Source: an uncultured Nostocoides sp. (GTDB taxonomy: Bacteria; Actinomycetota; Actinomycetes; Actinomycetales; Dermatophilaceae). From it: a stretch of DNA of 33,826 nucleotides. The translations under genes and the position numbers were made by a program. Where the stretch lies: positions 1 to 33,826 of the forward strand of contig CALCXF010000008.1 of assembly GCA_937907685.1 (NCBI GenBank). The letters are read 5' to 3'. The notes beneath the pieces are model-generated. The model saw only the letters and a list, made by a program, of their open reading frames with translations. It was not told the origin of the DNA and ran no database searches. Within the stretch, counting starts at the first letter, position 1. Each line of letters opens with the position of its first letter. Of the stretch, positions 5,372-6,324 are shown in pieces.

Positions 5372-5578
5372 TCAGCCGATGACGGTGATGTTCGCTGCCT
5401 GCGGGCCCTTCGCGCCCTGCTGGGTCTCGTACTCGACCTTGGCGTTCTCGTCGAGCGAACGGTAGCCGTTCGAGTTGATCGCCGAGTAGTGGGCGAAGAC
5501 GTCGGCCGAGCCGTCGTCGGGGGCGATGAAGCCGAAGCCCTTGTCGGCGTTGAACCACTTCACGGTGCCAGTAGCCAT
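5372..5578 (-). CDS. cspA: Cold-shock protein (CspA family)
   Basis: This 68-residue single-domain cold-shock protein is a single-stranded nucleic acid binder and RNA chaperone of the cytoplasm. The start [18 protein letters not shown] holds RNP1 (KGFGFI, residues 13-18) and RNP2 is present as DVFAHY near residues 26-31, with Ala where VFVHY is common. The length is that of the usual actinobacterial CspA. The ATG at 5578 begins exactly at the conserved N-terminus; a weak AGTAGG precedes it. The gene is monocistronic, followed by a strong hairpin and preceded by an unusually long structured leader, as is typical for cold-shock genes. Confidence 0.95.
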
Positions 5579-5587
5579 GGGAAGCCT

Positions 5588-5663
5588 ACTTTCTGAGGAG
5601 GGGCCACCCGCCTGTCGGGAGGCTCCGCGTTGGTGATGCCTGTGATACCTCTGCTCAGAAAGT
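5588..5663 (-). promoter_or_regulatory. Structured 5' leader of cspA with perfect inverted repeat
   Basis: A perfect 10-base inverted repeat, ACTTTCTGAG at 5588-5597 and CTCAGAAAGT at 5654-5663, lies in the predicted leader. The copy nearer the gene abuts the weak AGTAGG ribosome binding site, so pairing could affect translation. The distal copy also lies in a direct repeat, TGCTCAG-AAAG-TGCTCAG (5652-5669). A temperature-dependent switch as in E. coli cspA is an inference. Confidence 0.5.
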
Positions 5664-5724
5664 GCTCAGTCCCGGCGGGACGTTCTGCAGCTACCTCACA
5701 ACGGAAAGCTCAACAACTCCGGCC

Positions 5725-5730
5725 AGCCTA
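5725..5730 (-). promoter_or_regulatory. Candidate -10 element of cspA
   Basis: TAGGCT on the minus strand would place the transcript start near 5718 and give a leader of about 140 bases, a length typical of cold-shock mRNAs. No good -35 is seen. Confidence 0.4.
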
Positions 5731-5778: not shown

Positions 5779-6324
5779 ATGACCAGCCAGCCCGCCGCGG
5801 GACCGGCACCCCGACGGCACCAGCGCGTGGGCCGCATCAAGGCCGCCTTCGACTCCGCGACCGGTCTGCGGCGCGGCATGAACCTCTGGCCACCGTTCCT
5901 GCTGACCGGTATCCACATCGAGGAGGTCGCCGACGACTTCCGGCACGTGCGGGTGAGGCTGCGCCGCTCACCCCTGACGACGAACTACGTCGGCACCCAG
6001 TTCGGGGGGTCGCTCTTCGCCATGACGGACCCCTTCTGGATGGTCATGGTGATGCGCAACCTGGGGCCGTCCTACGTCGTCTGGGACAAGGCCGCCGAGA
6101 TCGAGTTCGTCGCCCCGGGGCGCACCGCCGTCACCGCGGACTTCTCGCTGGACCCGGGAGTCGTCGCCGAGGTGCGCGCGGCGGCGGACGCTGGCGAGAG
6201 GGTGCTCCGGTGGTTCGAGACGGAGGTCGTCGGCACGGACGGTGTCGTCGTCGCCCGGGTTCGCAAGCAGCTGTACGTCAGGCGTGCTCCGAGCGACGCC
6301 CCCCGTCCGACGGCGGACGGCTGA
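5779..6324 (+). CDS. DUF4442 hotdog-fold (PaaI/YiiD-like thioesterase) protein
   Basis: This 181-residue protein has the DUF4442 hotdog pattern. A helix begins at residue 20 (IKAAFDSATGLRRGMNLWPPFL), strands follow with VRLRRSPLTTNYVGTQFGGSLFAMTDPFWMVM at about 70-100, then WDKAAEIEFVAPGRTAV. Hotdog proteins of this group are thought to act on acyl-CoA or acyl carrier thioesters, but this family's substrate is undefined. Translation probably begins without a leader, from the TAGTCT element. The 3' end overlaps the end of the convergent membrane-protein gene by 47 bases, which may create antisense interference. It is divergent from cspA. Confidence 0.8.
   Translation: MTSQPAAGPAPRRHQRVGRIKAAFDSATGLRRGMNLWPPFLLTGIHIEEVADDFRHVRVRLRRSPLTTNYVGTQFGGSLFAMTDPFWMVMVMRNLGPSYVVWDKAAEIEFVAPGRTAVTADFSLDPGVVAEVRAAADAGERVLRWFETEVVGTDGVVVARVRKQLYVRRAPSDAPRPTADG

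Follow-up and report, generated by a model that had tools for sequence, protein, structure and literature searches.

A conserved leader of actinomycete cold-shock protein genes and its predicted exchange between two folds

Layout of the csp gene and its leader

The window, that is, the whole stretch of 33,826 nucleotides analysed here from an uncultured Nostocoides sp., carries on its minus strand a cold-shock protein gene (csp) with a long leader, the elements of which are collected in Table 1. A divergent DUF4442 gene on the plus strand (5779-6324) begins some 60 nt away from where csp transcription is predicted to start, and the promoters of the two genes share a short intergenic region. 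The first-pass annotation had read TAGGCT as a -10-like element followed by a leader of about 140 bases, and the layout agrees with this reading: AGUUGUUGA begins 6 nt after TAGGCT, and a start at 5718 gives a leader of 140 nt. An automated promoter scan found no promoter at csp.

Table 1. Coordinates of the csp gene and of the observed or predicted elements of its leader
Feature	Position	Strand	Basis or remark
Cold-shock protein gene csp (CSD)	5372..5578	-	68 aa; PF00313, 2.6e-31
-10 element TAGGCT	5725..5730	-	Sequence, and TANNNT/5' motif in relatives; predicted transcription start about 5718-5717
5'-terminal motif GUUGUUGA, putative anti-sequestor strand	5710..5717	-	Exact in 23 of 26 A1 leaders; GUUGYAGUG-type in other families
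Hairpin P0, GUCCC-GCC-GGGAC	5669..5681	-	Terminator-like in some relatives, not in the window
P1 5' arm ACUUUCUGAG, anti-SD arm	5654..5663	-	Repeat, folding and partner tests
P1 extension	GAGG 5651-5648, CCUC 5601-5598	-	The two stretches can pair
Target UCACCAAC of the 5' motif	5629..5636	-	CACCGCGAC-type in other families; nascent-fold computations
Hairpin P3, GCC.CCCG-ACAGG-CGGG.GGC	5603..5623	-	Strongest covariation of all leader helices
P1 3' arm CUCAGAAAGU	5588..5597	-	Overlaps the Shine-Dalgarno
Shine-Dalgarno AGAAAGUAGG	5585..5594	-	6 nt before the AUG; 16S tail of relatives

The plus-strand sequences ACTTTCTGAG (5588-5597) and CTCAGAAAGT (5654-5663), with 56 nt between them, form the inverted repeat described previously, which is exact over 10 bp and still matches at 88% when lengthened to 16 (5588-5603/5648-5663). 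Since csp reads the minus strand (CDS 5578-5372), the 5588 copy is indeed the gene-proximal one and lies at the Shine-Dalgarno (SD). The SD had been called weak, but 9 of the 10 bases of AGAAAGUAGG (5594-5585) match the complement of the 16S tail CCTCCTTTCT. The 16S tail GGATCACCTCCTTTCT was seen in all three of the related genomes that we chose, but the draft genome to which the window belongs did not yield it. The gene-proximal arm is the SD sequence itself.

Dinucleotide shuffling of the 140-nt leader produced a perfect 10-bp inverted repeat with a spacing of 20-100 in 28 of 5000 cases, and the whole window holds 18 such pairs, partly overlapping, where 40 shuffles gave 13.5 on average. The repeat by itself is therefore only mildly unusual. 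What counts is its conservation rather than its bare presence. The frequency of such repeats across the window would suit a DNA-level operator or a chance repeat without any role in the RNA; we consider this very improbable, as the arms change in concert among relatives (see below) and keep a fixed position over the SD. The direct repeat noted in the same annotation is present (5646-5662/5692-5708), but its two 17-nt copies are only 71% alike and the competing pairing proposed for it found no support, the better candidate for a competitor being the mRNA 5' end, which could pair with 5636-5629. The folding energy of the whole leader, taken as a single sequence, was no better than that of its shuffles (z 0.48).

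Conservation of the leader among relatives

We gathered csp orthologues by protein similarity, which biased the set to close homologues of the window's protein. The collection kept 80 named loci out of 590 candidates. Loci also came from 51 of 58 relatives (E 1e-20), from 101 of 297 genomes of the order (1e-28) and from 29 of 186 genomes of the window's family (1e-30). The csp start was located in 236 of 237 loci, giving 224 distinct leaders. Alignment A1 consists of 26 leaders (24 distinct), of which 25 are from the window's family and one, L004, is from a relative; alignment A3 holds 32 wider leaders, and a first broad alignment (A2) was left out of the results. For tests across families, a set of 75 leaders was cut to 43 divergent representatives less than 0.75 similar. 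In a same-genus genome (G001:C152:84097-84240), the csp orthologue matched only from residue 21 and contained an in-frame TGA, possibly a pseudogene or an assembly error. In some family members (L004, L088 and L145), the AUG lies within a possible small hairpin, GCCAU-NNN-AUGGC.

When a TANNNT -10 element was required to be followed within 22 nt by a motif agreeing with GUUGYWGWK at 7 or more of its 9 positions, both were found in 136 of the 224 distinct leaders, compared with a mean of 2.6 and a maximum of 6 in 20 rounds of dinucleotide shuffling, and the gap between them was 6-11 nt in 132 of the 136. From its place directly after the -10 element, we infer that the mRNA begins with the motif. 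The conserved -10 element together with the motif argues against a transcription start downstream of 5654. A working set of 145 motif leaders comprised the 136 found by rule and leaders with motif positions placed by hand (14 positions, nine of them in added leaders and two in leaders nearly identical to others).

About 62 nt ahead of the AUG lies a conserved site to which the motif is complementary. In the window, GUUGUUGA and UCACCAAC pair at 7 of 8 positions, and elsewhere than in the window's family the pair reads GUUGYAGUG/CACCGYGAY. Where the site was located from the sequence alone (49 leaders), 38 pair at 8 of 9 positions, and 85% of the motif and target positions were paired, compared with 14-47% in slid registers. 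Counts of base pairs in the wider set gave no covariation of this 5' helix (2768 of 5000 permutations). With both clades pooled, the motif's own partner beat foreign ones in 36 of 43 cases (0 of 5000 permutations); by energy within clades, it did so in 6 of 14 in the window's family (1659 of 5000) and in 18 of 29 elsewhere (193 of 5000). As these within-clade permutations are weak, much of the pooled signal is a difference between the clades. We also applied a null model in which columns evolved independently on the tree, counting those of 400 simulations that reached the observed pairing, covariation and both-side changes; within the window's family the counts for the 5' helix were 94, 124 and 126. 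Individual motif duplex energies were near chance relative to shuffles (mean z -0.39). Taken as a whole, these sequence comparisons suggest only moderate covariation of the 5'-end helix.

A second csp paralogue in the same genome, L002 (G000:C19:3458-3652), has TAGCGT upstream followed by GGTTGCAGCAACAGC, and the 5' motif may therefore be common to csp paralogues. Ten Streptomyces csp leaders (L067-L070, L075, L076, L079, L080, L082 and L083) are of a different kind, with GUUGCAGUUUGGUUUCCCUUGCAGUAC at the 5' end and, in five of the ten, a terminator-like hairpin by rule. In several Streptomyces csp leaders, a GCCCAAGGAGGGC-like stretch adjoins the AUG and could hide the SD.

Helix P1, formed by the two arms of the inverted repeat, and hairpin P3 were both recovered unprompted by RNAalifold from the 26 A1 leaders, P1 with 7 bp. 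For the 29 pairs of the named structure, 84.0% of the cells in A1 pair, compared with 80.7 +/- 0.7 in shuffles (0 of 500) and 36-52% when the structure is slid to other registers; covariation was 0.213 against 0.158 +/- 0.011 (0 of 500), and pairs changed on both sides numbered 11 against 8.3 (48 of 500). P1 by itself had 79.5% of the cells paired over its 10 pairs in A1. Concerted changes of the arms in the mRNA occur in L086, where CUUUCUG/CAGAAAG has become CUUUCCG/CGGAAAG, and in L119, where UCUGAG/CUCAGA has become CCUGAG/CUCAGG. Under the tree-based null within the window's family, the counts of simulations reaching the three observed values were 4, 0 and 0 of 400 for P3, 46, 2 and 107 for P0, and 40, 22 and 62 for P1, so that P1 is marginal within that family.

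Across families, RNAalifold on A3 found only P3. The register of P1 shifts between families, and we therefore used an alignment-free partner test. In 35 of the 43 divergent representatives the 5' arm preferred its own SD region over the median foreign SD (p 2e-5), and the own-SD total of the 43 was reached by 0 of 5000 permutations; the preference held in 8 of 14 in the window's family (200 of 5000) and in 23 of 29 in other families (0 of 5000). Against shuffled arms, P1 reached p of 0.05 or lower in 27% of the 145 motif leaders and in 9% of 88 leaders without a detected motif. These comparisons indicate that the arms of P1 are not a product of chance and that covariation of the SD helix is good across families and marginal in the window's own. 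The covariation among relatives that the first-pass annotation had proposed to look for was thus found as concerted change, with the reservation that it is only marginal in the family under the tree-based null.

An alternative reading is a transcription attenuator, in which a terminator-like P0 would compete with the P1 5' arm and the leader would control read-through instead of, or besides, translation. Terminator-like hairpins do occur in 36 of the 145 motif leaders, compared with 5% of shuffles, and in 26 of these 36 the hairpin ends 78-97 nt before the AUG, near the P1 5' arm. We nevertheless regard attenuation as improbable, since the window leader has no GC hairpin with a U tract by either rule, 109 of the 145 motif leaders have no such hairpin, and three of the 36 have it at P3 instead. 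Leaders with such hairpins include L066, L182 (by eye), L190, L205 and L106, which are possible attenuators.

Covariance models were also searched against whole genomes with no gene information. Model R1, built from A1, was run over 396 genomes of the order and gave 19 matches at E of 0.01 or lower. In the window's family, five of its six matches were at csp genes, all five being training sequences; the next five matches, from another family (E 3.4e-5 to 1.4e-3), were at csp genes as well, and the other nine (E from 1.4e-3, one in the window's family) had no csp-like motif nearby. The window, which belongs to the training set of R1, scored 144.3 bits. Model R2, based on A3, was run over 297 genomes, and each of its best 47 matches, at E 2.8e-6 or lower, ends at the start codon of a csp gene, as confirmed for 34 in retrieved loci and for 13 by coordinates against the protein search; 19 of the 47 are training sequences by locus, and some genomes may repeat others. 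The first non-csp match of R2 appeared at E 2e-5, beyond which csp and non-csp matches were mixed. R2 had no match in the window's own genome and did not reach E 1 on the window leader, which sets the window's family apart as a separate subtype. When R2 was run across 246 genomes of the phylum, 25 genomes gave matches, at 27 places. A check for sequence motifs put four of these places at csp genes; the remaining 23 had no csp motif nearby and were taken as chance matches.

Predicted exchange between two folds

To represent the nascent RNA, we folded leaders up to 30 nt before the AUG, ahead of the SD arm. The mean probability of pairing between motif and target was 0.55 in the 26 leaders of the family, of which 69% were above 0.5, and 0.54 in the 49 other leaders, of which 57% were. 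It fell to 0.04-0.05 with the rest of the leader shuffled, to 0.19-0.20 with the inner domain alone shuffled and to 0.26-0.29 with the target alone shuffled, and it was 0.10 at the same geometry in 88 leaders without a detected motif. In the full-length RNA, the motif and target paired at 0.03 (family) and 0.10 (others), and the SD region paired with the 5' arm region at 0.52 and 0.37, respectively. From nascent to full length, 27 of the 43 representatives dropped by more than 0.2 and one rose. The window leader gave 0.39 at the chosen cut, and some family members (L088, L119 and L153) were near 0. When the window transcript was grown, the lengths tried gave probabilities of 0.54-0.87 as far as 15 nt before the AUG; at 10 nt before the AUG, the probability was 0.03 and P1 had formed. 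In 64 leaders from the class, 62 of them from outside the order, the motif was found in 22, with means of 0.365 nascent, 0.112 shuffled and 0.062 full-length; 13 of the 22 exceeded their own shuffles, and seven of the nine that failed carry GTTGCAGTT. With the 5' helix forced in the window RNA, AGAAAG was unpaired at 0.5-0.6, and with P1 forced it was unpaired at 0.0.

We lean towards the view that the csp leader is a two-state co-transcriptional translation switch that works like that of Escherichia coli cspA. P1, P3 and the conserved 5' end are supported by sequence comparison, the two states are computed, and use as a cold sensor is our inference. As the RNA emerges, the 5'-terminal GUUGUUGA would pair with UCACCAAC 74-88 nt downstream, closing a domain that encloses the anti-SD arm and leaving the SD arm free (ON). 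Once the SD arm is made, ACUUUCUGAG would pair with CUCAGAAAGU to form P1 and hide the SD (OFF). In the cold, refolding from ON to OFF would be too slow and new csp mRNA would remain translatable, whereas in the warm the mRNA would refold and be shut; the Csp protein may modulate the switch.

In another reading, P1 and P3 would form a static structure that sequesters the SD and keeps basal translation low. A protein, either Csp or a helicase, would open it as a form of autoregulation, and the RNA would encode no temperature switch. These two helices carry most of the comparative support, and P1 is computed to be favoured in the window RNA by about 11 kcal/mol at both 10 and 37 C. E. coli CspA, moreover, promotes translation of its own closed mRNA, according to excerpts of PMC9947658. 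Such a structure leaves unexplained both the conserved 5' motif with its complementary target and the computed loss of their pairing upon synthesis of the SD, and we hold it to be rather unlikely.

P1 (OFF) was the more stable computed fold at all temperatures tried (5-42 C). The mean unpaired probability of the SD in the window RNA stayed at 0.21 between 5 and 45 C and reached 0.22 at 55 C, and this flat exposure makes a melting thermometer unlikely. A zipper thermometer of the ROSE or fourU type, in which P1 would melt with temperature and open the SD, fits the pairing of P1 with the SD, and the computed exposure of the AUG, though not of the SD, grows as the temperature rises, from 0.37 at 5 C to 0.58 at 37 C. 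It would, however, turn on in heat, which is the wrong direction for a cold-shock gene, and with the flat SD exposure this makes it highly implausible. The first-pass annotation had likened the leader to a cold-shock mRNA thermosensor; the likeness extends to the long structured leader, the pairing of the arms, the sequestration of the SD and the predicted switch-like working, but not to melting. As equilibrium exposure of the SD is independent of temperature, cold sensing, if real, would be kinetic. Cold raises the refolding barrier for any stable fold, and for the switch from ON to OFF findpath gave a barrier of 21 kcal/mol at 10 C, compared with 12 at 37 C; these values are heuristic, and that at 42 C is out of line.

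Relation to known cold-shock leaders

The enterobacterial cspA thermoregulator (RF01766) likewise precedes a gene of the CspA type, and the E. coli leader is also long, with about 157 nt from the start of the cold box to the AUG (L400). Excerpts of PMC9947658 and PMC6386945 describe an open fold of the E. coli mRNA, made in the cold with the SD exposed, and a closed fold at 37 C. In our computations on this one sequence, run with no shuffles, the 5' end paired near -54 in the nascent RNA (0.84-0.91), and the pairing was lost once the start codon was made. Its computed SD exposure was 0.20 at 10 C and 0.19 at 37 C; as E. coli cspA is a known thermosensor, flat equilibrium exposure is no argument by itself against a sensor.

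By sequence the window is outside RF01766, to which it matched at 17.7 bits (E 0.02), compared with a gathering cut-off of 78 bits, about 60% of the matched stretch being coding. No Rfam family reached its gathering threshold on the window, RF01766 gave one match in 12 other leaders (11.7 bits, E 9.5), and neither R1 nor R2 matched E. coli cspA. Some Micrococcales leaders (L008, L018 and L161) and E. coli cspA (L400) share the order UCUGUA..AGC, an ACGCC/ACACC run, a small hairpin and the SD, the hairpin being GCCGAAAGGC in E. coli and CCCGAAGGUCGGG-like in Micrococcales; this may reflect convergence or distant homology.

Among actinobacteria, Corynebacterium glutamicum cg0215 is likewise a csp gene (cspA) with a long leader, in which excerpts of two RNA-seq papers (PMC3890552 and PMC4046766) note a cspA motif by Rfam match, one of them terming it an RNA thermometer. 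That label rests on RF01766. Two other Corynebacterium csp loci gave no match to R1 or R2. According to excerpts of PMC10454040, which make no mention of the leader, cold induces cspA of Mycobacterium smegmatis only about 2-fold. Among the matches listed in a search of the open-access literature, we found no description of the present actinobacterial csp leader element, which we define here by the -10 element, the 5' motif, the target at about -62, P3 and P1 over the SD, all of them present in the window.

Translational riboswitches and attenuators have two mutually exclusive helices, anti-sequestor and sequestor, one of which hides the SD. The csp leader is computed to resemble them in having two exclusive helices and to differ in that the anti-sequestor would be the predicted 5' end of the mRNA itself; no ligand pocket was noticed.

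To our knowledge, E. coli is the main organism in which the switching of cold-shock mRNAs has been worked out at the RNA level. We put forward tentatively, and with slightly less than even confidence, that the csp mRNAs of actinomycetes carry an undescribed RNA family whose anti-sequestor consists of the opening 8-9 nt of the transcript, a kinetic, co-transcriptional cold switch equivalent to that of E. coli cspA with another sequence and other helices, reached by convergence or inherited from a very old common design. If so, a covariance model could annotate many csp leaders, and the leader would offer a compact system (about 140 nt with two competing helices) in which to test whether kinetic folding can serve as a thermosensor. 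A leader of different build in high-GC Gram-positive bacteria, should it undergo the same exchange from nascent to mature fold, would also reveal what an RNA needs in order to sense cold.
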